Positions 17,485 to 59,653 of a stretch of 64,000 nucleotides of DNA are shown piece by piece. Location: contig NC_015315.1 of NCBI RefSeq assembly GCF_000193375.1, positions 1,372,622 to 1,436,621 of the forward strand. The letters are read 5' to 3'. The translations under genes and the position numbers were made by a program. Under the pieces are notes generated by a model. The model ran no database searches and was not told where the DNA came from. It saw only the letters and a list, made by a program, of their open reading frames with translations. Position 1 is the stretch's first letter, and the number at the start of each line of letters is the position of its first letter. This DNA is from Thermoproteus uzoniensis 768-20. Its GTDB lineage: Archaea; Thermoproteota; Thermoprotei; Thermoproteales; Thermoproteaceae.

Positions 17485-20400
17485 ATGCATAACCCCAAGA
17501 CAACGGTATTCCTAATACTGGTAATCGGCCTAATAACAATAGGGATAGCCCACGCCCAAGGCTCGCAAGCGGGCGGCGGGCTCTACGCCCCCGGAGCGAC
17601 CATAACCTACAACATAACATGGCAGATAAACACGGAATGCCCGGCATGTCAAGCACTCTACGGGAAACACCCGTGGGCTCCAGCCGCCAACCTAACTAAC
17701 AGTTACTCCTGGGCCGCCGGCAAGCAGTTCACGCTGGTCATACGCGATCTGAATGAGACCACCTCCCTCACAAACATTGTCGTCAACGCCACGGCCAACA
17801 AGACGGGCTTCGTGACGTTCCAAGTCAAGGCCCCAGCCAGCCAAGTCAACATCTACACTAGGTGGGATATCGCTCTCCTAGTCAACTGGCACGGCTACTA
17901 CTTCCTGCTCTTCGAAGTCCCCAACTTCAAAGGCACATTCGCAGACTTAATGGGCAACTTCACGGGCCAATACTACACGATACTTCCTAACGGCACAGTC
18001 ATCAACAACTACTACTCGAGTTACCTTAACCTCACATTCCTTTGGCTGCACCAGTTCTATCTGGGCGTGTGGACCGCAGGCCAGCCCTACAACTTGACTC
18101 TGGTCGAGACGCTGTCAATAAACGGTACCCCTGTCTATACATGGACGTATAAGCCGCTGTCGAAACTGACAATACCTAACGGCACCGTCTTCGGGCCCAT
18201 TACTTACCTCGGCACTTACGTGACCTCGCTAGGCACGGCGGGCCAGAACGTAAGTAGCTATCTGTCGCCGTCCAGCGTCTCCTACACGTTCAAGGTGGTT
18301 ATGTCCATCTACAACCAGCAGACAGGGACGTACGTACAGCAGACATTGATAGAAAGCACTAACCACATCAACACATCGTATCCGGGCACGCCGCCAGCTC
18401 CGAACCAATTCTACGTCATCGCGACGTTGAACTACACAACTATGACCAACGCCTCCTCGGTCGACGCCACGTGCCAGCAGCTGGTCATATGGCCGTTGCC
18501 GCTCAGCACCTTGACTATCGGCATGCTCTACGACATAAAGGGCAACCCAATACTCAGCCCCGAGTACTTCACCTTTAAGATCCAGGAGAACATAGGCGGC
18601 TACCCGCTGACCATATCCCAGCAACAAGGCGGTTGGTCCACCGACATAACCGACGTCAGGTTCAGCTTCCTCCGCGCGCTCTGTGGCGGCGGGACCATAT
18701 CCAGCTTTTCTGACCTGGTCAACTGCTTCAACACCCTCACCCGCACGAAGCTGATAAATGCGGTCTATAGCATATACAAGCACCCGACCCTCGCCTGGAT
18801 AAGCGGCATCCGCATACTCACGGATCAGAGTGCTCAGCTGTCCTCGGTTAACCTCAGCCCCAGGCTGATAGTTGAATACTCATACCAAGCCATCCAGTAC
18901 ACTTCGTCCCAGCCGCAACCCACCAGCGGCTATATTGACGCCGTGGTTTTCCAAGCCCCGCTTAATGCAACCGGACTGGTTAATAAGACTGTTGACCTAA
19001 CAGTCGCTATACTGCCCGTGCAGATACCGCTGTGGTGGCGCAACGGCATGGCTCTGCCCAACGGTCAGCCCTTCAATAACCCCGCGTTGGCTCAAGGCCT
19101 CACCTTTGTGTTCCAGGGCACCACGGCGTATTTGAATGAGACCGGCCAATACGCAGTCGTGGCCGACCCGTGGAGCAGTAGCGCCACCGGCACCAACCAG
19201 TTCAACACATTATACCTGTGGGCTCTCCCGCCGTATGAGTACGTGCCCATAACTCCCGGCGTCTACGCCGATCTGCTCACTTTGTTCAACGCCAGCGGCT
19301 ATCTGCCCCTCCCGCCGCTGAACGCGATACTCGCTAAATCGGGCTCTACGTACTACATTAAGTACCTCAACTGGAGCCAAGCCGTTGCTCTAAGCAATCT
19401 CTTCAGCCAGTACGGCCTCTCCGTAGGCACGAACCAGTACACCTACAGCTTCAGAATATACGCCGGCTCTATACTGGTGGGCACTGCCAACGTCGTGGCG
19501 ACGTATCCGTTGGTGTACCCTAACGGCACCATGGTGGAAACCCAGAGCAACGTGGCCAATACGCTCTACGCCCAGTACGGCCCTAAGGCGTACCCAGACG
19601 CCTACACGGTACAGGCAGTCTACTACAACGCCACCGCCACCCCCGGCGTGTACGGCCTACAAGCCCAGAAGCTAGGGTTCTACAACCTCGAGCACGCTAT
19701 AAATATCGCGATCAACCTCAAGACGATGAACTTCCTGTTCAAGGACTTCTGCGGCAACGTGCCGTCTGTGGTCAACGGCACCATAAGCCTGACTGTCGTA
19801 TACGGCGGCCAGAACATAACTCTGTCCCAGCTGCCCGTGGCGGCCGAGGTCCCCGTCACCATACCCGCGGCGGTCGACCAGTGGGGCGCTCCGCTGACCA
19901 ATAAGGCGACTGCCTACGTTACGCTGAACTACTTCGGCTATAAGCTGTACGGCACCACCAACAACACGGCCTTGCCCACAAGCCCCGTGCCCATATCCGT
20001 GGCGCTGGCCAACGCCCCCTACTTCAAGCCCGTCGTGTATCTGCCCATAGCGCCGCAAGTCTTCCGCGTCATGGCCGCCGTCTGGACGGAGGAGGACCCA
20101 GTGGGCGGCCCCGCTAAGGAGGTGTATCTAGGCCCGCAGTACCCGTTGGTCGGCTTCGTGCTGGTGCCCACAAGCCTTGCGCCGGGCTATGTGGGTGTTA
20201 GGATGGGCGAGTCCATAAGCAACGCCTCGGGCTACGCCTACTTCGACGAGCTACCGCTGAACGTGACGTTCCGGATGACCGTCCGCACGATAATACCGCA
20301 GGTGGACATGTACTGGCCGTACACGGCGGCCCAGACGCTCTACGGCAACTCGTACGCCGACTACGCCCAGTGGCTGGGCCTCAACGCCACTAACTTCGTC

Positions 20401-23400
20401 TACACGTTGGGCACTAGAGATCGTATAGACGCCGGCATAGTCGCCAACAGCACCACCCTGAAGCTGACCACTTGGTGCGCCAAGCCGCAGACCTTTGAGG
20501 CTCAGGTGTACAACCCGGTGTTTAGGATATTCGACAAGACTGGCCAGCACCTGCTGTCCAGTCAGTTCATAGTGCCCGGCCCCTATCCCGGCGCTGCCCC
20601 GCCGATACTGGCCAACGTGACATTGGTGATAGCGGACGACCGCAGCCCGTACCTCTATGCATCTAGATGGTTCAACTTCACCGATGGGGACTTCAATGTC
20701 TTGACCGACTTCAGGCTTGTGGGCATGACCGGCATGCAGTCCATATGGCAGAGCATAGCCGCCAAGTATCTGAGCAAGGCGCAAGCCTTCGCCGGATGCA
20801 CCGCGCCGCCGACCGGCAACTTATCCGACGTGGCCAACGCCCTGGCGTATGCGGCTATGGCCAGCTGGCTCGCCAACTCCTCCACCAACCTCTACTCCGC
20901 AGTCTTTACGTTGTACTCTGCGCAACCCAACAACAGCAAGCTGTCCGTCTGCAGCCTGACGCCGACTACCGTCGGCACCTACGACATAGCCCACCTGTTC
21001 CTGCCCGGCATGAGGCTACACGTGAGGGTGTGGTATATGGGCTATTTGGTGTACGACGGTTATGTCACGCTAACCAAGCCCACCGTCGACATAAGGGCCA
21101 GCGTCGTGCCGCTTAACGTCACCGCCTTCACTAAGGACATGAGGTTGCCTGTCAACGCGTACATAGGCTTCACGCTGGCCAACGGCTACTTCGGCTTTGC
21201 GTTCAATAGCCCATACTCTGGCGTCAACTTCAGCGACACCTATATACTGTACTCGCTGGTCGAGCCGTACGGCTTCCAGCCTCTATGGTTGAGTTCTATA
21301 CTGACCAGCCTAACCGGCTACGGCACGCCTGCGCTGCACGATGACGCTGTCCAGTATAACTTCACTAGCAGATACGCCTACTACGGCGCTTATAAGACTG
21401 TCACCGCCGGCGCTGAGTTCGTCTACCTGCCCAACCTGTTCGTGTCGCGCAACCTGACCACGCCGGTATACCTCTACACTGTCAACGGCACCGGCTACGA
21501 GCACGCCGCCAGCTTCGACAGGTGGGTCAGCGTGAGCTACCCGCCGACTACCATACGCACTCACAACTACTTCGAGAGGAACACATTCCTAGATCTATTG
21601 ATGGGCGGCTATAATTTACCCGTGCCGGCGCCGTTCAGTAGCCCGTCGACCGGCGTGTACACGACCAGCTTCGCCATCTACATGTATAACCCGTACAACT
21701 CAACCAACCTACTCAACTATAAGACGTTGAGGCTGTATCTGCCTTGGGGCAACGGCACTAAGGCCATAGTGACCGTGAAGGCGGTCAACGCCAGTAACGG
21801 AGCCAGCTACACCGCTACGTTCAACCTATCGAACTACTCCAACTTGACGCAGAACTTGTTGGCGTACGACATAATTCTGCGCAACATAGCGCTGAACCTA
21901 GTGCCCGGAAACGCCACGGCCGAGATAGTATTCACCATCACCGTTAACTACACCGCCGGGCCTACCACCTCGCTGTACAGCGTTCCGACAGCCACGCTGA
22001 TAAACGGCCTCTACGCCTATGCGGCGTACGACAACACCACGGTGGCGACCGCCGCCGGCGCTAACGTCACTCTGCATTTCATAAACGTCATGTTGCCTGC
22101 CGACTCCAAGTACATACAGTGGGGCGGATTCGGCGCGCCCGTCACCTACATAGTGCCCGCTGGCCAGATTGCCCTGCTTCCCGAATACGCCGACGATGCG
22201 TACGTGTCGCTTGCCGGCTCCTACATAGCCAGGATATGGATAATAGCCGCCGGCTCTAAGGAGGCTCTCTGCACCTCCGGTCCCAACGTGCTGGGTCCGC
22301 TGACCGACAGCAAGGGCGCCTACATCACTGGCTACGACTTCTTCGGCAAGCGGTACCTCGTGGTGAACTACATACCCGCCTCGACTCCCGCCACCAAGTC
22401 GTCGGTGCCCGTCTACACCAACACCTACCTAGACGAGTTCTACGACGGCTCTGGCATGGTCGCCGGCCTCGGGTTCCCGATAGGCGGAACCAGCGCCTTC
22501 GCCATAGGCGCCTACCTCGGCAAGCCCGTCTGGGATGTCAGTGCGCTGTATGCCATGGGCGTGACCAGCCTGCAGTTGCCCACCACCGCGCTGGACTACC
22601 TGACTGTGTACAACAACGCCTCCTTCCCGATACTGGTATCCGGAGTGACCGTGTCGTGCGGCGGCTCCAGCTACACGATACCCATCAACGCCTCCACCGG
22701 CTACGTCTATGTGAATGTGTCCCAGCAGAAGTCGATACCGCTGAACGGCTACGGCTTCGGCAGATCCTACGCCGTGAACGCCTCGGGCCTCTGGAGCCTC
22801 GACGTCTACGCTCCGCAGTATGAGTACTCCGTCAAGGCCTACTACGGCGGCGTCGTCGACACGCTCAAGCACTTCATAAACGACATACCGATACAGGCGA
22901 ACAGGACTCTGTCGCCCACCATAAAGGCCGAGCTGATGAATGCCTACCAGCTCGCCCAGCAGGCGTTGAACAACTACACGTTGCTGGTGAAGCTGTTCAA
23001 CCTACAGCCGCTGAGCTCTACTTCCTACCCAGAAAAAGTGCTCTATGCCAGCTATGCCGATAGACCCAGGAACGGTTGGCAGTACACCTTCAATGTGGTG
23101 AGCGAGTCCGCGAAATACTGCACCGGATCGGTTGTCTACTACATAGCTAAATTGTTCAACGGCCTCTTCGCGATAGCTACCAACGTCTACAATGGTTCCG
23201 CCGTGATCTACTACGATAATAAATATGTTGTATTGCCTGTCAATAGCACCGTCTTGGCACAGCCACCTTCCGTGACCGTCCTGAATATAACCTATCTCAG
23301 TAGCGGCACGGTCGTCGTCTATCTATCTAACAGCACCACGCTGATCTACAACAACGTGTCCAAGGTCATATGGCCCGCCTACTTTGTCGAGGTTATATGG

Positions 23401-25656
23401 CCCCTTAACCTCGCCGGTAACTACTACCTAGCGGTCAGCTATAACTCAATAAGCATCCCCATCTGTAATTATAAGACTTCCACGACCGAGTGGACGGCCG
23501 GCACTTGGGGCACGTTGACCACCAACTCCAGCGACTACGACTTCAAGTACTTCTTCAACTTCCCCGAGCTACCGCTGAAGTACATACTGGACTGGAACGC
23601 CAGGCCGCTTGCTAACCAGACCGTGGTGCTGTTCGACAGGGCGACGCACCAGGTGTACGCAGTGATATTCACCACCAACACCGGCCAGCTGTTCTACGAC
23701 CTGCCCAACATCGGCGCCATGGGTCTGAGCAACGACATCTACGTGAGCTGGTTCGACGGCTATCCGTTGATGGTGCTGACCGGCGATCCGGCCTACCTAG
23801 TGTGGGTCTACCAGCAGGACGTAGGCAACGACGTGTACCAGCTGGGCAACGCCGCCACGTCGGCTGAGATAAGGACCTACGTGTATCCCGCTACGCTGAC
23901 CGTCAATGGCCCCAACGGCCAGCCGCTCGCTGGCGTGGTCGTGCAGGTGTTCGACGACGCTACTAAGGGCGCCATGTTCTACTTCATGAACACCACCAGT
24001 AGCGCCGGCTCCGTGACTGTCTACGACAAGCTGGTGTCCAGCTATCCGGGCGGCTTCCTGTCCCAGCTACCGTCGACGAACTTCGACTACAACATACTGT
24101 ATCCGTACAGCTCCGGCACCGCCGCCGCTCCCGCCGACGGCGCTGTCTGGGTCCCCGTAGCCACCGGCACCTTCTCGATACAGCGCGGCGCCACCGTGCC
24201 CAGTAGCGGCTACTCCATAACCTCCACCGTGACCTTCGCCACGCAGATACCGCTGTCCCAGCCCGTCGGCGTCAGCGGCACCTTCTACATGCAGACTCCC
24301 AGCGGCACTGTAGCCATACCGTTCAAGACAGTGACCGTATCCGGTACATCCTACATAGTGCCGTCTCAGCCTATACCCACCAGCGTGAGCTACCCGCTAC
24401 AGATGGAGATAGACACAGTGACAGTCAACGGAGTTCCGATAAAGCTCGCGACGCCGTTCAAGACAACGCTGACCACCACGTCTCTGCCGAGCTCTTTCGA
24501 CCTTGCATCACTCGGCCTGCTGGCGCAGGTCACTGTGCAGGCCCAGGACGGCTTCGGGAAGCTTAGGACCGACTGGCCGATCACCGTCTCGCTGAACGGC
24601 CAGACCGTGGCGACCGGCAACGGTGTTGTGACTGCCTACCTACCGTTGAGCCAGTACGCCGGCGCCTACAACGTGACCGTGGCTACTACGGTCAAGACTC
24701 CCAGCGGCTCAGTCGTGGTCAACACCACTACGCTGACCGTCAGCGGGCCGACCACCTACGTAGTCAGCGTGCCGTCCGGCGTGATATCTGCTAGCGTAGT
24801 CGACGCCTTCGGCACCGCCCTCAGTAGCTCGCCTGTGCAGATAACCAACGTCGCTACCGGCACCGGCTCCGTTACCGCCGAGGTGCTAGCCGGCACCTAC
24901 ACCGTATCCGCCCAGGCCTTCGGCTACACGTGGAGCAAGACGGTCACCGTCTCTAGAGGACAGACCGCGACCGTGCAGATAGTGGTGCCCACCGCCAAGA
25001 TCTCCGCCAGCGTAGTCGACCAGGCCATGGGCTCCGTCGGCCAGTGGCCCATACAGATAATAGGCCCCAGCGGCTCCGCGGTGGCCTCCGGCACCGGCTC
25101 AGTGACTGCCGAGGTCCTTGCCCAGGACAACACCGGCGCGCCGCTCCAGTACAACGTAGTGGCCGTGACGCCGTTCGGCACCTACTCCACCGGCTCGTTC
25201 ACGCTGTCGCCTGGTCAGACCGCCACCAAGACCATAACCGTCCCGACCGCTGTGCTGCAGATATCCGCCGTCGACGACAACGGCTATCCCATCAACAACA
25301 TGGTGTCGCAGGTAGACGTCTACTTCGCCAACGGCACTCTGTACAAGAGCTTCTCGTCCGCCCCTGTCAGCGTCGAGGTGTTGGCCGGCCAGCAGTACAC
25401 CATCAAGGTCACCGCCCAGCAGAACCACGTCGGCACTGCCCAGATAACTCCGCCCGCCGGCCAGACCGTCGCCATACGCGTCACTGTGCCCGGCACCGCC
25501 GGCATAACCATAGGCGGAGTTAGGATACCGATATCCGAGCTGGTGCTGTGGATAGTGCTGGTGATAGTCATAGTAATAATCGTCGCGATATTGCTAATGG
25601 AGTACAGCAACTGGAGGAGAAGGCGCTTGATGCAGATATTGGCCCCGCCGAAGTAG
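17485..25656 (+). CDS. Giant surface protein, probable S-layer protein with C-terminal membrane anchor
   Basis: A single open frame of 2,723 codons. Residues 1-24 are a signal peptide (hydrophobic VFLILVIGLITIGIAHA, cleavage near AQG). The exported part is rich in Thr, Ser, Asn, Tyr and Gly with dozens of N-x-S/T sequons. From about residue 2345 to 2670 there are four beta-sandwich repeats. A single membrane helix at about 2686-2705 (LVLWIVLVIVIVIIVAILL) is followed by a basic tail with RRRR, placing the C-terminus inside. Size, export signal, C-terminal anchor and strong promoter fit a stalked S-layer protein. I do not recognise a family for residues 25-2300, and a giant adhesin is the alternative. 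Confidence 0.8.
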   Translation: MHNPKTTVFLILVIGLITIGIAHAQGSQAGGGLYAPGATITYNITWQINTECPACQALYGKHPWAPAANLTNSYSWAAGKQFTLVIRDLNETTSLTNIVVNATANKTGFVTFQVKAPASQVNIYTRWDIALLVNWHGYYFLLFEVPNFKGTFADLMGNFTGQYYTILPNGTVINNYYSSYLNLTFLWLHQFYLGVWTAGQPYNLTLVETLSINGTPVYTWTYKPLSKLTIPNGTVFGPITYLGTYVTSLGTAGQNVSSYLSPSSVSYTFKVVMSIYNQQTGTYVQQTLIESTNHINTSYPGTPPAPNQFYVIATLNYTTMTNASSVDATCQQLVIWPLPLSTLTIGMLYDIKGNPILSPEYFTFKIQENIGGYPLTISQQQGGWSTDITDVRFSFLRALCGGGTISSFSDLVNCFNTLTRTKLINAVYSIYKHPTLAWISGIRILTDQSAQLSSVNLSPRLIVEYSYQAIQYTSSQPQPTSGYIDAVVFQAPLNATGLVNKTVDLTVAILPVQIPLWWRNGMALPNGQPFNNPALAQGLTFVFQGTTAYLNETGQYAVVADPWSSSATGTNQFNTLYLWALPPYEYVPITPGVYADLLTLFNASGYLPLPPLNAILAKSGSTYYIKYLNWSQAVALSNLFSQYGLSVGTNQYTYSFRIYAGSILVGTANVVATYPLVYPNGTMVETQSNVANTLYAQYGPKAYPDAYTVQAVYYNATATPGVYGLQAQKLGFYNLEHAINIAINLKTMNFLFKDFCGNVPSVVNGTISLTVVYGGQNITLSQLPVAAEVPVTIPAAVDQWGAPLTNKATAYVTLNYFGYKLYGTTNNTALPTSPVPISVALANAPYFKPVVYLPIAPQVFRVMAAVWTEEDPVGGPAKEVYLGPQYPLVGFVLVPTSLAPGYVGVRMGESISNASGYAYFDELPLNVTFRMTVRTIIPQVDMYWPYTAAQTLYGNSYADYAQWLGLNATNFVYTLGTRDRIDAGIVANSTTLKLTTWCAKPQTFEAQVYNPVFRIFDKTGQHLLSSQFIVPGPYPGAAPPILANVTLVIADDRSPYLYASRWFNFTDGDFNVLTDFRLVGMTGMQSIWQSIAAKYLSKAQAFAGCTAPPTGNLSDVANALAYAAMASWLANSSTNLYSAVFTLYSAQPNNSKLSVCSLTPTTVGTYDIAHLFLPGMRLHVRVWYMGYLVYDGYVTLTKPTVDIRASVVPLNVTAFTKDMRLPVNAYIGFTLANGYFGFAFNSPYSGVNFSDTYILYSLVEPYGFQPLWLSSILTSLTGYGTPALHDDAVQYNFTSRYAYYGAYKTVTAGAEFVYLPNLFVSRNLTTPVYLYTVNGTGYEHAASFDRWVSVSYPPTTIRTHNYFERNTFLDLLMGGYNLPVPAPFSSPSTGVYTTSFAIYMYNPYNSTNLLNYKTLRLYLPWGNGTKAIVTVKAVNASNGASYTATFNLSNYSNLTQNLLAYDIILRNIALNLVPGNATAEIVFTITVNYTAGPTTSLYSVPTATLINGLYAYAAYDNTTVATAAGANVTLHFINVMLPADSKYIQWGGFGAPVTYIVPAGQIALLPEYADDAYVSLAGSYIARIWIIAAGSKEALCTSGPNVLGPLTDSKGAYITGYDFFGKRYLVVNYIPASTPATKSSVPVYTNTYLDEFYDGSGMVAGLGFPIGGTSAFAIGAYLGKPVWDVSALYAMGVTSLQLPTTALDYLTVYNNASFPILVSGVTVSCGGSSYTIPINASTGYVYVNVSQQKSIPLNGYGFGRSYAVNASGLWSLDVYAPQYEYSVKAYYGGVVDTLKHFINDIPIQANRTLSPTIKAELMNAYQLAQQALNNYTLLVKLFNLQPLSSTSYPEKVLYASYADRPRNGWQYTFNVVSESAKYCTGSVVYYIAKLFNGLFAIATNVYNGSAVIYYDNKYVVLPVNSTVLAQPPSVTVLNITYLSSGTVVVYLSNSTTLIYNNVSKVIWPAYFVEVIWPLNLAGNYYLAVSYNSISIPICNYKTSTTEWTAGTWGTLTTNSSDYDFKYFFNFPELPLKYILDWNARPLANQTVVLFDRATHQVYAVIFTTNTGQLFYDLPNIGAMGLSNDIYVSWFDGYPLMVLTGDPAYLVWVYQQDVGNDVYQLGNAATSAEIRTYVYPATLTVNGPNGQPLAGVVVQVFDDATKGAMFYFMNTTSSAGSVTVYDKLVSSYPGGFLSQLPSTNFDYNILYPYSSGTAAAPADGAVWVPVATGTFSIQRGATVPSSGYSITSTVTFATQIPLSQPVGVSGTFYMQTPSGTVAIPFKTVTVSGTSYIVPSQPIPTSVSYPLQMEIDTVTVNGVPIKLATPFKTTLTTTSLPSSFDLASLGLLAQVTVQAQDGFGKLRTDWPITVSLNGQTVATGNGVVTAYLPLSQYAGAYNVTVATTVKTPSGSVVVNTTTLTVSGPTTYVVSVPSGVISASVVDAFGTALSSSPVQITNVATGTGSVTAEVLAGTYTVSAQAFGYTWSKTVTVSRGQTATVQIVVPTAKISASVVDQAMGSVGQWPIQIIGPSGSAVASGTGSVTAEVLAQDNTGAPLQYNVVAVTPFGTYSTGSFTLSPGQTATKTITVPTAVLQISAVDDNGYPINNMVSQVDVYFANGTLYKSFSSAPVSVEVLAGQQYTIKVTAQQNHVGTAQITPPAGQTVAIRVTVPGTAGITIGGVRIPISELVLWIVLVIVIVIIVAILLMEYSNWRRRRLMQILAPPK
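24520..25485 (+). repeat. Tandem beta-sandwich repeats in the surface protein
   Basis: Within the giant gene, units of about 75-90 residues recur. Each starts with a strand such as ISASVVDAFG, ISASVVDQAMG or LQISAVDDNGYP, contains GTGSVTAEVLA or PVSVEVLA, and closes with ITVPTA or IVVPTA. The DNA of the second and third units is also similar, for example the stretches near 24855 and 25088 coding for GTGSVTAEVLA. They resemble carboxypeptidase-regulatory or Big-type domains and would form a stalk just outside the membrane helix. Confidence 0.6.
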
Positions 25657-53508: not shown

Positions 53509-53811
53509 ATGGCGAAGATGGTGGCCAGCCTATCGGTCACTCCTCTCGGCACGGGGTCCACGCATCTATCCGCCTACGTTAGGGCAGCTACAGAGGTCCT
53601 GAAGGAAATGGGGGTGAAGTACAGAACAGGCGCCGGCTTCACCGACATAGAGCTCGACGACTACTCGACGCTGGCGGAGATACTCAAGAGGGTTGAGGAC
53701 AAGCTGGCCTCCATGGGCGTCAAGCGCGTGGACTTCATCATAAAGATAGACAGGAGGATGGACGAGGAGCTCACCATAGAGGGAAAGATATCGAAAGTGG
53801 AAAGGCGCTAG
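53509..53811 (+). CDS. MTH1187/YkoF-type thiamine-binding protein
   Basis: A 100-residue member of the MTH1187 family, ferredoxin-like fold tetramers that bind thiamine or a related ligand: VASLSVTPLGTGSTHLSAYVR, GVKYRTGAGFTDIE, RVDFIIKIDRRMD. The ATG at 53509 has a GAGGTC just upstream and TTAAAAAG about 20 nt upstream. Its 3' end overlaps cobS by 41 nt on the other strand, an unusually long convergent overlap here. Confidence 0.88.
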   Translation: MAKMVASLSVTPLGTGSTHLSAYVRAATEVLKEMGVKYRTGAGFTDIELDDYSTLAEILKRVEDKLASMGVKRVDFIIKIDRRMDEELTIEGKISKVERR

Positions 53812-54490
53812 TCGCCGCGATGAAGGCGACTCTGCTGAGCTCGAGCAGATAGCCGAGCACGTCGCCGTTGGCGCCGCCCAGATGTTTATACGCTATATAG
53901 TAGGCCGCCGCCGACAGCGCCAGCGCCAGTGAGGAGGAGGGATACGCCATTAAGGCCAAGGCGAGCGCAGGCGTTGCGAAGAGCCACTTCCTCCTCACGG
54001 CGTTCACGAAGGCGGAGCCCAGCCCCTCCTTGAAGGGCTTGGAAAAGGCCGCAAGGACGACGACGAGCGACTTCGAGAAGATCTCGCCGAAGATCAACTG
54101 CCACGGACTCCTTAGATAGTTGACCGCCAGCGCTACCGCGGCGACGACGGCGAAGATCCCGGCGGTCCCTCTACGGGGATCCTCCAGCGCGGCCCTAGCC
54201 CTCTCCCTATCCCTCACCATCAAGGCGTCGGCGGTGTCGGCAAGTCCGTCGAGGTGGTTGAGCCCCGTCAGCAGAAGCAGGAGGAGGTAGGCCGGGAGCG
54301 GCCCCAGATAGATTAAGGCCAGCGCGGACAAGCCGCCCAGGATAGGCGCCACGACGTAAGGCAACGCCCAGGCGCAGGAGAAGTCGAGCTCGGCCTTGAC
54401 GGGCAGTACTGTGAAGAACCCGATCAACGCCCTTACGCACCGCCCGGCTCCCTCCCCGCCTTTAGGTCGGCAGGGCGCTACGCGCCGCAT
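53771..54490 (-). CDS. cobS: Adenosylcobinamide-GDP ribazoletransferase (cobalamin synthase)
   Basis: Integral membrane enzyme joining adenosylcobinamide-GDP with alpha-ribazole (phosphate), last committed step of the nucleotide-loop pathway. 239 residues with about six membrane helices. Diagnostic segments are FFTVLPVKAELDF, LLLTGLNHLDGLADTADALMV (the Asp-rich HLDGLADTAD active site) and AAYYIAYKHLGGANGDVLGYLLE. The first 20 residues are Cys/Pro/Gly-rich and unusual, so the true start may be a TTG about 20 codons downstream. Overlaps cobD by 13 nt. Confidence 0.93.
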   Translation of the reverse strand: MRRVAPCRPKGGEGAGRCVRALIGFFTVLPVKAELDFSCAWALPYVVAPILGGLSALALIYLGPLPAYLLLLLLTGLNHLDGLADTADALMVRDRERARAALEDPRRGTAGIFAVVAAVALAVNYLRSPWQLIFGEIFSKSLVVVLAAFSKPFKEGLGSAFVNAVRRKWLFATPALALALMAYPSSSLALALSAAAYYIAYKHLGGANGDVLGYLLELSRVAFIAATSAFPLSISFPLW

Positions 54491-55392
54491 AATGCCCTGA
54501 TCAGCAAGTCGTCCTCCTCCCTCCTCTTTATCGAGACGCGGGAGTAGCCCGGCATGCCCAAGTCGTCGAGAGGCCTCACCTTGACCTTGTCAGTCCACCC
54601 CCTCACTATGAAGAAGTGGAGGCGCGACTTGACCACCTCGACGCACCGCGAAAGGGCCTCCTGCACCCTAGGCCCCTCGGCGGCGACGTACTCACGCGTG
54701 GCCTCTCTGTGCCTCTTCAGCGCCTCTGCGCCTATGTTGTATATCGCGTAGTCCGCCAACGAGTTGACCCGCCACGGCGACTTGACGTCCGGCCTCACCC
54801 GCCCCAACGCCGCCCCCAGTCTGAGGCCTGGCGCCGCCAAGATCTTCCCGTAGGACTTCACTACGGGCACGTCCGGCGCCGCCGACTCCTCGCGGACGAA
54901 GTCCAGGAAAGATTCGTCCACCAACAGACGCGCGCCGCGCGCCTCCAGAGCTCTGCCGAGCTCGAGGACCTCGTCGCGCCCCATCACCGAGCCGGTGGGG
55001 TTGTTCGGGTTGCACAGCAACAACAGATCCCCCGAGGCGGCCCTCCCCACCAGCGAGCTCAAGTCGCCTCTCACGACCTCGAGGCCCAGCAAGCCGGCTA
55101 TACGTACGTAGTCGCTGTACGTCGGCCAGGGGAGCAACAGCCTTTTGGGCCTCAACGCCGCTATCATGGCAGTCAAGGCCTCCGTGGCTCCGTTGAAGAG
55201 GACGACCTCTATCCCCTCGTACTGCGCAAGCACCTCCTCGGCTAGATTCGCCGGAAACCTCAGATAGACCCCTCTCTCCGCCGCCTCGGCCACCAGCTCG
55301 GGGAGGCCCGGCGGAGGGCCTATGGGGTTTAGGTTGTCGCTGAAGTCCAAAACCGCCGGTTCGGCCCAAGAAGTGCCTCCGTGCACTCGCAA
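54478..55392 (-). CDS. cobD: L-threonine-O-3-phosphate decarboxylase (CobD-type, PLP)
   Basis: HisC-like PLP enzyme, 304 residues. HGGTSWAEPAVLDFSDNLNPIGPPPG at the start (split across residues 4-29) is typical of CobD, which makes (R)-1-amino-2-propanol phosphate for the cobamide side chain. PLP-contact segments are NGATEALTAMI, CNPNNPTGSVM, LVDESFLDF and SYGKILAAPGLRLG with the Schiff-base Lys. It lies in the cobamide cluster between cobS and a flavoprotein gene. A histidinol-phosphate aminotransferase role is less likely in this context. Confidence 0.85.
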   Translation of the reverse strand: MRVHGGTSWAEPAVLDFSDNLNPIGPPPGLPELVAEAAERGVYLRFPANLAEEVLAQYEGIEVVLFNGATEALTAMIAALRPKRLLLPWPTYSDYVRIAGLLGLEVVRGDLSSLVGRAASGDLLLLCNPNNPTGSVMGRDEVLELGRALEARGARLLVDESFLDFVREESAAPDVPVVKSYGKILAAPGLRLGAALGRVRPDVKSPWRVNSLADYAIYNIGAEALKRHREATREYVAAEGPRVQEALSRCVEVVKSRLHFFIVRGWTDKVKVRPLDDLGMPGYSRVSIKRREEDDLLIRALCGA

Positions 55393-55416: not shown

Positions 55417-56586
55417 TTAGCTGTACCCGAATAGGTTGGCTAGGTAGCTCTGCTCCCAGTTGTCCTTGGCGAGTGTGTAGTCCCTCTTCGGCTCGGGGTC
55501 CTTGCTCGGCTTCGGCGGCTGGCTCGTGAAGTCTAGGCCGAACCTAACCGACAAGCTCTCCAGCCTTCCCTCGGGATTGCCCACGTAGGCCCATCCGACG
55601 AACGCGTATTGGACCGACGCCCTGTAGGAGGACCCCTCCATCTCCAGTATCTTGTTGGCGGCGAACAGCGCGCTCTCAAACGCTATTTCCTGGTTCTTGG
55701 GGAACGGAAGGCCGGCGGCGTCGCCCACGGCCAACACGTCGTCGTATTTGGGGTGTCTGAGGTCTTGCGGGCTCCTCACGTCGATCCACGTCTTGCCCAA
55801 GCCCGCCTCCTCGACGAACTTAGGCGCTCTGTTTGGCTCGAGCATCGCGAGCACGTCGTATTTATAACGCTCGCCGGACTTCGTGACGACTTCCCTCTCG
55901 CCTATCTCGACGATCTCTTGGTTCGTCACGAGCTCTATCCCCTGCCGCGAATATATCTGGGAGACCACGTCGGCGATCACCGGCGGTTGCGTCTTGTCGT
56001 TGGCGTCTATGTGGACTATCTTGAACTTGTCCCGCACGCCTCTGTGCCGCAGGACCGAGTCTATGAGCAGCGCCGTCTCGGTAGGGGCAGGGGCGCAACG
56101 GTACGGGGCCTTGGGGGCGTACACGACTATCGTGCCCCTCTCGGCGCTCCAGATCTTGCTCCTGAGCAGATGGACGCGGCCTGGGTCGTAGACGTTCAGC
56201 ACGTTGTGCCTATACTTGTCGTAGCCTGTTATGCCGGAGCCGTCCAGCACCACGCCGGGCGCAAGGACTAGGTAGTCGTAGGCGAGCTCGCCGACTCCGC
56301 CGCTCGACGTGTAGCCGCCCACATATCTGACCTTCCTGTTGGCGGGGTCGATGGAGAACGCCGTGCCGACAACGACCTTGACGCCCTTCCTGATCGCCTC
56401 CTCGTAACCCCTCACTATTCTGTCCAGCGTCTGTTCCTTGGTAAGCAGTAGAGGTCTGCTCGGCCCCGAGAAGTAGTGCGGGCTCTGCGTGACGACGGTC
56501 ACCTCGGCGTTGATTTTCCCCGATATCAACGTGTTGGCGACGGCCATTCCCCCGATACCTCCCCCAACTATTACCACTTTCTTCAT
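55417..56586 (-). CDS. SQR-like FAD-dependent pyridine-nucleotide-disulfide-family oxidoreductase with a single cysteine
   Basis: 389 residues from ATG 56586, which is 25-27 nt after TTTAAAAATG; an upstream in-frame ATG at 56625 is less likely. FAD motif [29 protein letters not shown], and [16 protein letters not shown] match sulfide:quinone oxidoreductase and flavocytochrome c flavoproteins. SQR needs two or three redox cysteines, but here the only Cys is in [13 protein letters not shown]. It sits inside the cobamide cluster, so a role as corrinoid reductase is conceivable, but that is inference; sulfide oxidation is unlikely by the classical mechanism. Confidence 0.8.
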
Positions 56587-56700
56587 GAAATCGGATCTGA
56601 TTTTCATTTTTAAATTTTGATCCATAATAATAAATATTATAGCAATTAATATTGATACTATTTTTATTAATATTTATATTTATATTATTTTATTCTAACT

Positions 56701-57258
56701 CTATTTATTTAGTATCTCGTATATTAAAAAGGAAGTCTCGGAGCCTATCTCAGTCGCCGCGCCGGCGTAGTGCGCATCTCCCGGCGGCGCCGCGACGAGC
56801 ACGGCATCCGACGTTGTGCCCAACGACGGCCTCCCGCCGCAGAGACCGCGGGCTGTCAACGTCGCCGCCTTGGCCTCGGCCGCCGTCCTGTAGAGGTCGA
56901 GAAGGCCTCTTCTGGAGAGAGGCACCCGAGACACGACGAGTATGTTCACCGTATGCTCCTCCCTGCTGTGCGTAGCGCCGATGCACGCCGGGTTGGCCAG
57001 GCCCACCGTCGCGTAGAGCTCCACGAGCCGGCCCTCGGCGCGCCTCATCTTCGATATGTCCGCCGCCGTGAAGAACACGGCCGCCCTGCCGACGAGGCCC
57101 AAGCTCTCCAGCAACGTCGACGCGTAGAGGTCGAAGTCCGCTATATACCTGTCCACCTGTTTGAAGACGACGTACCTCACCTTCTCGAAATCGCCGCCGA
57201 GGACCACGTTGCCTAAGGCGAGCAGATCGCGGCCTAGGTCCAACACGAATAGGGTCAA
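56701..57258 (-). CDS. cbiZ: Adenosylcobinamide amidohydrolase
   Basis: Salvage enzyme that cleaves adenosylcobinamide to adenosylcobyric acid, allowing archaea to use incomplete or foreign corrinoids. 185 residues. Segments VELYATVGLANPACIGA and GTTSDAVLVAAPPG match CbiZ. It starts with TTG 57258, overlapping the cobT stop (TTGA). Between it and the flavoprotein gene lies an AT-rich 115-bp gap with TATA-like runs. Confidence 0.88.
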   Translation of the reverse strand: MTLFVLDLGRDLLALGNVVLGGDFEKVRYVVFKQVDRYIADFDLYASTLLESLGLVGRAAVFFTAADISKMRRAEGRLVELYATVGLANPACIGATHSREEHTVNILVVSRVPLSRRGLLDLYRTAAEAKAATLTARGLCGGRPSLGTTSDAVLVAAPPGDAHYAGAATEIGSETSFLIYEILNK

Positions 57259-58241
57259 GACCCGACGAGCCTCTCGTACTCCTGTTCGACCATCTCGAGC
57301 ACCGGCAGGCCGCGGAGGGAGGCGAGGTACAGCGCGCCGCCCATGGCCACACCCTCCTTGACGTATCCCCGATCGTAGTATCTGAGCCCCGGAAAACGGG
57401 ACGAGGAGAACGACGCCCTGGTCACCTTGATGTTGGCTACGCCGACTGCCTTCGCGAGGCCGAAGAAGTCGGCCGATCTATCGTCGGCGATCCACCCCGT
57501 GGTCGCCACGGTCACCTTGCCCAGATCGCCGCCGAGGGCTTTAATGATGGCGGCCGCGGCGAGCATCTGGGTGCCGCCGGCCAACACCGGCGCGCCTCCT
57601 GCGTCCAACACGCCGAGGGCGATGGCGGCGACGCCGACGTGGACGGGGTCGCCCAGCTCGGCCAACGCCTTTATCGGGTCGTCCAGCCGCCCGGCCCTTG
57701 CGAGTCCCTCCTTGACTACCGCCGTCTTGAGATCCTTGGGATTGTCGGGGCCGGCCGACGAGGTCTTGCCCCAAGCGTCATACCCCAACGCGACCAGTAT
57801 CGCCATAGCCGTAGTGGTGCCGCCCGGTATGGACTCCCCTATGAAGACGTCGCCGGCCTTAGCCAGCTCTCGGCCGAGGATCCTGCCGTTCTCCAGTATG
57901 TTCTCCACCGCCGTCTCGGAGAGGGCGGGCCCCTTCCTGAAATCCCCGCCCGGCTCCCCGCCCAGATCTATGTAGGGCACCTTCGGCCTCACTCTGCCTC
58001 CCGCGAAGGCCACCAGCTTCGGCATATTGCGGGTCAAAGCCCTCGTCACTACGGCGGGAGTCGGTATGCCGTCTGGCGTCACCGGTATGCCGGGTATGCT
58101 CTTGGGCCGCCCCGTCAAGAGGTACTCCACGTCTGCGGCGGGCGTGTAGTGGGTGAGCTCGGGCGAAGCCCCGGCTATAGTTATGCCGGGTATTAGCGAG
58201 ATGTCCGTCGTCCCCACAACGACGACTATTATGGGGTTCAT
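57255..58241 (-). CDS. cobT: Archaeal CobT-type nicotinate-nucleotide phosphoribosyltransferase
   Basis: Activates the lower-ligand base to alpha-ribazole phosphate. 328 residues, of the archaeal variant family. Matching segments are GTTDISLIPGITIAGASPELTHYTP (split), GIPVTPDGIPTPAVVTRAL, GESIPGGTTTAMAILVALGYD and GGTQMLAAAAIIKALGG. ATG 58241 is about 25 nt after ATAATAAATG. Overlaps cbiZ by 4 nt. Confidence 0.9.
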   Translation of the reverse strand: MNPIIVVVVGTTDISLIPGITIAGASPELTHYTPAADVEYLLTGRPKSIPGIPVTPDGIPTPAVVTRALTRNMPKLVAFAGGRVRPKVPYIDLGGEPGGDFRKGPALSETAVENILENGRILGRELAKAGDVFIGESIPGGTTTAMAILVALGYDAWGKTSSAGPDNPKDLKTAVVKEGLARAGRLDDPIKALAELGDPVHVGVAAIALGVLDAGGAPVLAGGTQMLAAAAIIKALGGDLGKVTVATTGWIADDRSADFFGLAKAVGVANIKVTRASFSSSRFPGLRYYDRGYVKEGVAMGGALYLASLRGLPVLEMVEQEYERLVGS

Positions 58242-58270: not shown

Positions 58271-58732
58271 TTACCAGTCCAGGCCCCTGACGCCGATAAT
58301 TCCCCTCGAGTAGTAGTGCTTGACCGACTTGACCTCAGATATCAGATCCGCCGCCATGAGCTCGGCGTAGTTGTAGTTCCCAGTCACCACGACGTGGGCC
58401 CCCAAGCCGAGAAGCCTCTTGAAGTCCTCAGACCTCAAGAAGCCCTGCCTAACGGCGTAGTTGAACTCGTCCAGGATGACCAAGTCGTAGCTGGGGGCTA
58501 CCGCCAGGGCCTCCTCGAGGAGATCCCTAGGCGTCTTGTGGTCCTCCAGATACAGCGCCTTGACCCCCAGCCTCCTCAACGCCTTGTACTCGCCCACGTA
58601 GTCGTCGAGATACCTCGGCGTCTTCATGGTAAACACCGCCAAGATCCTCATGTCGTGCCCCCAAGCCCTCAATAGAAGGCCCAACGCGGCCGTCGTCTTG
58701 CCCTTCCCGTCGCCAGTGTAGGCGAGGATCAT
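58271..58732 (-). CDS. cobO: ATP:corrinoid adenosyltransferase (CobO/BtuR type)
   Basis: Adds the upper adenosyl ligand to Co(I)-corrinoids. 153 residues. P-loop YTGDGKGKTTAALGL at 5-19, VFTMKTPRYLDDYVGEY, VILDEFNYAVRQGFL and HVVVTGNYNY. ATG 58732 is about 25 nt after TATATAAATAG, so this gene has its own promoter in addition to any read-through from the gene upstream. Confidence 0.93.
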   Translation of the reverse strand: MILAYTGDGKGKTTAALGLLLRAWGHDMRILAVFTMKTPRYLDDYVGEYKALRRLGVKALYLEDHKTPRDLLEEALAVAPSYDLVILDEFNYAVRQGFLRSEDFKRLLGLGAHVVVTGNYNYAELMAADLISEVKSVKHYYSRGIIGVRGLDW

Positions 58733-58759: not shown

Positions 58760-59653
58760 CTAAATGGGATCGCACTTGAGCGGCCTCACGCGGGCTAAAA
58801 AGCCGATATCGGCCTCGACGTGGTCCAGCTCCGATACGTGGACGCCGTTGTAGTAGTGGCGGGTGGCCCTAACGCCGAGCTTGACGCCGCGGGAGGCGGC
58901 CGACAGCACGGCCAACTTGGACACCTCGTTGCCGTCGCCGTCCCTCACGTCGATGCGGGAGTAGTCAAGGGGGACCACAGGCGCCGGTAGCCCGCGCTCC
59001 GCCAACGCGCTAAGGCGGTGGTGTCCGTCCAGCACAGTGCAAGTCCAGGCGTCGACGGCTATCGGCCTCACCATGCCGCCCAACGCAGGCACGGACTCCA
59101 CGTCTTCATGGGGCAGAAGGGAGCCGGGATCGACGAATACGGGGTATGTGGGGCCGGTACAGCCGGCTAGGGCCATCCAGCCCTCCCTAGTATCCACGTC
59201 GACTAGATCAGGCATACTCACGTCGACCCACCTAGCGGTGTCGCCGCTAGGTAGCCAGGTAAGGCCCACGTAGCCCCCCGCGCCTACCGCCGTGGACATG
59301 ACAGGCTTGGAGATCAGCCTCGCGACGTGGTTAGGCGTCAGGAAAGGCAGATCGCAGGCAGCCACCACGGCGGGCGCGTATGGGAGGAGCTCGGAGAAGT
59401 CCAGCTCGTATCCCCGGCCCTCGGTATACACCACCTCCATCCCCCACAGCCTGGCCAGCCACGCCACGGGCCCGTGCGACCTCGTCGTGGCCACCACCAG
59501 GCGGGAGGAGAAGGGCTGTAGCGCGGCGGCTACCCTCAACATCATGGGGACGCCGCAGACCGGCCTCAAGCACTTGAAGGGGTCGCCGAACCTGGCGCCT
59601 CTGCCGCCGGCCAGTATCACGCCGGTTACGCCGCCGCCCACCGCCTCTCCCAT
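58760..59653 (-). CDS. CobY nucleotidyltransferase fused to a SerK-like free amino-acid kinase domain
   Basis: 297 residues in two domains. Residues 1-170 match CobY, which transfers GMP to adenosylcobinamide-phosphate: VTGVILAGGRGARFG, TEGRGYELDFSELL, VVAACDLPFLT. Residues 175-297 match the ParB/Srx-fold serine kinase SerK: LLPHEDVESVP (PHE with the catalytic Glu), VLDGHHRLSAL (DGHHR), VVPLDYSRIDV and RATRHYYNGV (TRH). Each of these motifs occurs in the same order in SerK. In the cobamide cluster the natural prediction is an L-threonine kinase making the substrate of CobD. First codons may start at GTG 59641. Confidence 0.85.
   Translation of the reverse strand: MGEAVGGGVTGVILAGGRGARFGDPFKCLRPVCGVPMMLRVAAALQPFSSRLVVATTRSHGPVAWLARLWGMEVVYTEGRGYELDFSELLPYAPAVVAACDLPFLTPNHVARLISKPVMSTAVGAGGYVGLTWLPSGDTARWVDVSMPDLVDVDTREGWMALAGCTGPTYPVFVDPGSLLPHEDVESVPALGGMVRPIAVDAWTCTVLDGHHRLSALAERGLPAPVVPLDYSRIDVRDGDGNEVSKLAVLSAASRGVKLGVRATRHYYNGVHVSELDHVEADIGFLARVRPLKCDPI

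Follow-up and report, generated by a model that had tools for sequence, protein, structure and literature searches.

A candidate L-threonine kinase domain of minimal SerK fold joined to CobY in the cobamide gene clusters of Thermoproteus and Pyrobaculum

A CobY-type protein with a second domain

Where does L-threonine phosphate come from in archaea that have cobamide genes and no PduX? The cobamide pathway has a gap here, which in the literature searched is filled for archaea by one protein only, the CobD of M. mazei. The question is raised again by a gene in the window analyzed here (the whole stretch of 64,000 nucleotides) from the single-contig genome (1,936,063 bp) of Thermoproteus uzoniensis 768-20, in which a CobY-type guanylyltransferase is joined to a kinase-like domain. 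The gene belongs to a seven-gene cluster on the minus strand, with intergenic distances of -13 to 75 bp, that reads as follows:

58760..59653, minus strand: CobY-kinase fusion gene, 297 aa, ATG start, at the head of the cluster
58271..58732, minus strand: CobA/BtuR-type corrinoid adenosyltransferase (Pfam PF02572, 1.3e-32)
57255..58241, minus strand: archaeal CobT-type phosphoribosyltransferase (TIGR00303, 1.1e-95, above cut-off)
56701..57258, minus strand: CbiZ adenosylcobinamide amidohydrolase (Pfam PF01955, 6.3e-32)
55417..56625, minus strand: FAD/NAD-dependent oxidoreductase-like gene, named by sequence appearance
54478..55392, minus strand: CobD-like L-threonine-phosphate decarboxylase, 304 aa (TIGR01140, 155 bits; best family, under the 290.55 cut-off)
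53771..54490, minus strand: CobS cobamide-phosphate synthase (Pfam PF02654, 2e-37; TIGR00317 above cut-off)

The oxidoreductase-like gene, which adjoins cob genes in 6/6 Thermoproteus genomes, could be involved in the supply of cob(I) for the adenosyltransferase. Elsewhere in the window, on the plus strand, an ORF of 2723 aa (17485-25656) has a size like that of the T. tenax candidate S-layer protein TTX_1887 (2663 aa) (PMC3189178).

Two features define the N-terminal half of the fusion protein:

59159..59629, minus strand: N-terminal CobY/MobA-type nucleotidyltransferase domain, residues 9-165 (Pfam NTP_transf_3, Foldseek, gene context)
59585..59614, minus strand: LAGGRGARFG nucleotide-binding signature, residues 14-23 (invariant residues in orthologues)

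The first-pass annotation had read the protein as a CobY guanylyltransferase joined to a kinase-like domain, with CobD among its neighbors. The position of the CobD-like gene in the same cluster agrees with this, and the identity of the CobY half is backed by a Pfam NTP_transf_3 match over residues 11-116 (E value of 8.6e-17), by its fold, and by the surrounding cob genes. In a Foldseek search with the full-length AlphaFold2 model (pLDDT 92, pTM 0.91), the second-ranked match was M. jannaschii CobY (3rsb), matching the N-terminal half, and no entry of the list had a higher target-normalised TM-score (TMt 0.68). Within the aligned fusion orthologues, A15, G16, G17, G19, R21, and K27 of this half are invariant. 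The best NCBIfam names for the fusion were MobA-like, all far under cut-off, and the CobY model NF045495, which was built from methanogens, gave 15.6 bits (E value of 0.0083) versus a cut-off of 250. The closest named record, from a Thermoproteus sp., has 85% protein identity to the fusion.

The C-terminal domain and its standalone relatives

Beyond the CobY half, the protein continues with a short domain and a variable tail, on which the following features were located:

58763..59152, minus strand: SerK-like mini-kinase domain followed by a variable tail, together residues 168-297, of which 168-275 are conserved (profile, hhalign, AlphaFold2, Foldseek)
59105..59113, minus strand: PHE motif, residues 181-183, with Glu183 at the position of Tk-SerK Glu30 (invariant in fusions)
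59015..59029, minus strand: DGHHR motif, residues 209-213 (Tk-SerK 69-73), invariant
58961..58969, minus strand: LDY motif, residues 229-231, Tyr231 invariant (orthologue alignment)
58856..58864, minus strand: TRH motif, residues 264-266 (Tk-SerK 223-225), T264 and H266 invariant (orthologue alignment)
58832..58840, minus strand: H-V-S motif, residues 272-274, common to part of the standalone relatives described below (orthologue alignment)

The assignment of this part to a SerK-type kinase, made at first from the letters alone, has now been reached by profile and by structure comparison as well. When the domain sequences of 13 orthologues were combined into a profile and compared with all PDB sequences, four SerK chains were the only significant matches (E values of 1e-7 to 1.5e-6, with 5x0b at 1.1e-7), and their DGHHR...DY and KTTRH are colinear with the fused domain. 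The AlphaFold2 model of the domain alone (pLDDT 95.7) retrieved SerK and SbnI at Foldseek ranks 1 to 9 (prob 1.00, TMq of 0.61 to 0.69), and ParB/Noc folds first appeared at rank 10, with an E value of 0.1 or worse. Scanned alone, the C-terminal domain of the window matched no Pfam family. Against the NCBIfam SerK model it scored 11 bits (E value of 0.17) versus an equivalog cut-off of 380 bits, and the same model matched 11/13 orthologues, with a best E value of 2.5e-5. Two other candidates were rejected: a DNA-binding or nuclease role of ParB type, as every SerK/SbnI entry outranked the ParB structures and Pfam ParB_N detected 0/13 fused domains, and a chance motif match, which is ruled out by the SerK-only profile match, the nine best folds, and the hhalign result given below.

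Conservation was evaluated in an alignment of the 13 intact orthologues, where H182 and E183 of PHE, D209 to R213, Y231, T264, H266, H272, and S274 are invariant. Loss of the catalytic Glu or of DGHHR, which had been named beforehand as evidence against the proposal, occurs in none of them. The ordered motifs PHE, DGHHR, LDY, and TRH listed in the first-pass annotation are all at their places in the window protein, but LDY and TRH do not extend to the whole family: LDY is replaced by MAY in one Thermoproteus protein and TRH by TWH in Pyrobaculum, while the KT of KTTRH becomes RA in most Thermoproteus. The invariant H-x-S (272-274) is an addition to that list. Mean identity between Thermoproteus and Pyrobaculum was 43% in the kinase domain, 48% in the CobY half, and 16% in the tail, and, because the average in the kinase domain is only 43%, the conservation of its motifs is selective. 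Glu30 of Tk-SerK, aligned with E183 of the fusion, is Ala or Gln in the SerK complex structures, according to PDB sequences and entry titles. As far as sequence and structure prediction go, the domain behind the CobY half has a minimal SerK fold with its catalytic residues intact, and it would be active as a kinase.

The same profile detected many standalone relatives of the short domain across the phylum, 140 to 200 aa in length (here, mini-SerKs). An hhalign comparison of the fused domain with them gave 99.9% and an E value of 3.9e-32 over 112 columns, and the mini-SerK profile in turn matched SerK at 7e-26 and SbnI at 2e-13. HE, DGHHR, Y, and H are invariant in the mini-SerKs, as in the fused domain. 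In a tree without a fixed root, the fused domains form one clade outside the mini-SerKs and SerK (support of 95/89). They also differ in structure: the helix after PHE, present in SerK and retained in the mini-SerKs, is missing from the fused domains, and none of these has the segment in which SerK carries Trp102, a position that most mini-SerKs keep. Trp102 has a role in the serine site of SerK; its absence was not counted toward threonine. Judged from the sequences, the absence of helix and segment may mean a different acceptor in the fused domain, without singling out threonine.

The mini-SerKs have a context of their own. In ten loci (L070, L074, L079, L083, L085, L086, L087, L088, L089, and L104, the enzyme type being judged from sequence), the mini-SerK gene is found 1 to 60 bp from the gene of a cysteine synthase-type PLP enzyme, with both on the same strand in 9/10; the neighbor in L079 resembles canonical CysK by the same judgement. 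At L073, a mini-SerK and a cysteine synthase domain (E value of 4.6e-52) are even parts of one protein. O-Phosphoserine would be the substrate of such partners, and the L073 protein is predicted to provide a serine-to-cysteine route in one polypeptide. The occurrence of mini-SerKs beside or fused to cysteine synthases gives independent support to the view that the single-domain form, lacking the remainder of SerK, goes with phospho-amino-acid pathways. No standalone mini-SerK was found near cob genes, where they had been expected beforehand, and many are in genomes without CobS; therefore, the short domain per se is no cobamide marker. The mini-SerK set describes a stand-alone domain of ~130 aa that occurs widely among archaea and has ties to cysteine synthesis.

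Several side observations belong to these relatives. Some of the cysteine synthase-type neighbors carry an N-terminal stretch resembling a decayed mini-SerK. The L073 gene (6607-8370, minus strand, genome G331) encodes 587 aa, with a mini-SerK, an apparent degenerate second copy, and the cysteine synthase-type PLP domain, and frames of similar length are also open in G337 and G360. Domain-only relatives with the DGHH pattern (L160-L206) were seen in Marine Group II/Poseidoniales and other genomes. Two SerK-like proteins of ~200 aa with an insert (L095 and L096, family f31) come from genomes with CobS and have, by eye, a glycosyltransferase-like and an endonuclease-like gene as neighbors.

Distribution and the source of L-threonine phosphate

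The fusion was present in 14 genomes of two genera, Thermoproteus and Pyrobaculum. A scan of contigs with two conserved peptide patterns, in which near-identical records may be left out, located it in these genera, in one Thermoproteaceae MAG, and nowhere else. CobS was found in 14/14 fusion genomes versus 0/5 family members without the fusion (Fisher p of 9e-5, a descriptive value that ignores kinship among genomes), CbiB in 13/14 versus 0/5, and CbiZ in 13/14 of those with the fusion. In all 11 genomes with both genes on one contig, CobD was at most 9 kb from the fusion, and in one of them (G036) the two are divergently adjacent. Genome G043, without CobS and CbiB, has the fusion gene in broken frames and with an altered DGHHR site; part of the breakage could be assembly error in this 80% complete draft. 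The CobY half alone could be the cause of the co-occurrence with CobS; for this reason, and because the genomes are related, the pattern cannot count as independent support of the kinase half.

The window genome (G000) was also searched for other enzymes that might be involved. No SerK was detected elsewhere in it at an E value of 1e-3 with the NCBIfam model, and CobU had no Pfam match there and none above cut-off in the order. PduX has the GHMP kinase fold, and the genome has five GHMP kinases (galactokinase-like, shikimate, homoserine, mevalonate, and pantoate kinase), all of them closer to other families, so that no PduX-like kinase was found, as judged by GHMP kinase family fit. Such a kinase elsewhere in the genome had been named beforehand as evidence against the proposal, and by this measure there is none beyond the window either. 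Membership of the fused domain itself in the PduX family was rejected, as it matches SerK only and not the GHMP fold. CobD uses L-threonine phosphate, and with neither SerK, CobU, nor a PduX-like GHMP kinase in the genome, this compound needs a source. A kinase domain whose fold acts on free hydroxyamino acids, and which forms one protein with a nucleotide-loop enzyme and has CobD encoded close by, fits that gap.

We therefore favor, with moderate confidence and from context, the reading of the first-pass annotation, in which the fused domain phosphorylates free L-threonine for cobamide synthesis. Under this reading, the C-terminal domain would transfer phosphate to the hydroxyl of L-threonine from a donor that is presumed likewise, with Glu183 as the putative general base and with DGHHR, Tyr231, Thr264, and His266 holding nucleotide and phosphate. 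The L-threonine phosphate would then be decarboxylated by CobD to aminopropanol phosphate, which CbiB would join to adenosylcobyric acid. Onto the adenosylcobinamide phosphate so formed, the CobY half of the fusion would put GMP from GTP. We would place just above even the claim that the domain is yet another kind of cobamide L-threonine kinase, unrelated to the others, in which a minimal SerK fold has switched from serine to threonine and become part of CobY. Against threonine, the residue evidence selects it over neither serine nor adenosylcobinamide, and the two fused activities would be non-consecutive steps of the pathway. An adenosylcobinamide kinase, serine phosphate for a norcobamide, and a kinase-decarboxylase CobD like that of M. 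mazei are readings added here to those of the first-pass annotation.

One alternative is serine, the substrate of the characterised members of the fold, among which an S. marinus enzyme reportedly phosphorylates serine. The domain might make O-phosphoserine for use in cysteine synthesis or by a CobD-like serine phosphate decarboxylase, which would lead to ethanolamine phosphate and from it to a norcobamide. The ties of the mini-SerKs to cysteine synthases would agree with this, as would the CobD of the fusion-bearing family, which scores lower on the threonine phosphate decarboxylase model TIGR01140 than that of the sister family f3; Tk-SerK, moreover, rejects threonine (PMC5120207), a point that also counts against our preferred substrate. 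However, the fusion sits in a cob cluster and is lost together with CobS, no cysteine-synthesis gene was found beside it, and the Trp102 position kept by most mini-SerKs is gone, for which reasons we consider a serine kinase improbable.

The order of the two reactions is where adenosylcobinamide enters. Bacterial CobU combines adenosylcobinamide kinase and guanylyltransferase activities, and fusions are classically explained by consecutive reactions. By analogy, the C-terminal domain could phosphorylate adenosylcobinamide at its aminopropanol hydroxyl, before guanylylation of the product by the CobY domain; the missing helix and Trp102 segment might open the site to so large a substrate, and CobU is absent above cut-off from the whole order. 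Nevertheless, CbiZ, which belongs to the archaeal salvage route bypassing this kinase, is encoded in this very cluster and in nearly all fusion genomes, and CobD plus CbiB yield adenosylcobinamide phosphate directly, so that the threonine phosphate gap would remain. We give this alternative little weight.

A different difficulty for threonine comes from family f3 (genera g5, g7, and g8; e.g., G002, G015, and G018), whose genomes have CobD, CbiB, CobS, and a standalone CobY and mostly no SerK-like gene. There must therefore be another source of L-threonine phosphate in the same order. In some f3 genomes, the standalone CobY is beside a second MobA-like gene. One such source could be CobD itself, as PMC9986279 cites M. 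mazei CobD (MM2060) as a reported kinase and decarboxylase (Tavares 2018/2019). If this held in Thermoproteus too, the fused domain would be a nucleotide-binding regulatory or structural element, in keeping with the many roles in which ParB-fold domains bind NTPs (PMC12704722). The window CobD, though, is at 304 aa too short to include the C-terminal extension of the M. mazei protein, and a pure sensor would have no need to conserve Glu183, whose counterpart is mutated in the SerK complexes. This explanation seems unlikely to us.

Phosphorylation of L-threonine by the fused domain, if true, would place both the first and a late step of nucleotide-loop assembly in a single archaeal protein, and the domain would be, to our knowledge, the first SerK-fold kinase acting on a non-serine substrate. 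For the L-threonine kinase of a whole archaeal family, the fusion offers a concrete candidate, in which E183 is the one residue to mutate. No description of a CobY-kinase fusion was found in the literature searched, a search that covered few subscription papers, and the fusion is likely new to the literature. The Pfam model PF02195 (ParB_N), on which a 2025 survey of the ParB-CTPase fold relied, misses the fused domain, and the main text of that survey mentions neither cobalamin nor nucleotidyltransferase (PMC12704722).

Comparison with known systems

The closest characterized counterpart is Tk-SerK (TK0378; 5x0b/5x0e/5x0j), an ADP-dependent free serine kinase that shares with the fused domain the fold, E30, and the order of DGHHR, DY, and T-x-H. 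The fused domain is much shorter (~110 aa versus 242 aa), as the SerK region inserted between DY and KTTRH is absent from it, and it is joined to CobY in a cobamide gene context. SbnI, the staphylococcal free serine kinase, has the same fold and is among the nine best structure matches, but it belongs to a siderophore pathway, is ~254 aa long, and has no CobY domain. For the N-terminal half, M. jannaschii CobY (3rsb), the GTP:adenosylcobinamide-phosphate guanylyltransferase, has the fold, nucleotide-binding signature, and pathway context in common with the fusion and differs from it in having no kinase domain. CobU/CobP, like the fusion, are single proteins that unite a kinase with a guanylyltransferase for nucleotide-loop assembly, and they are not homologous to it. 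PduX and BluE, which are bacterial threonine kinases (PMC6249242; PMC7242693), catalyze the same reaction that is proposed for the fused domain (ATP + L-threonine to L-threonine phosphate for CobD) with an unrelated fold.
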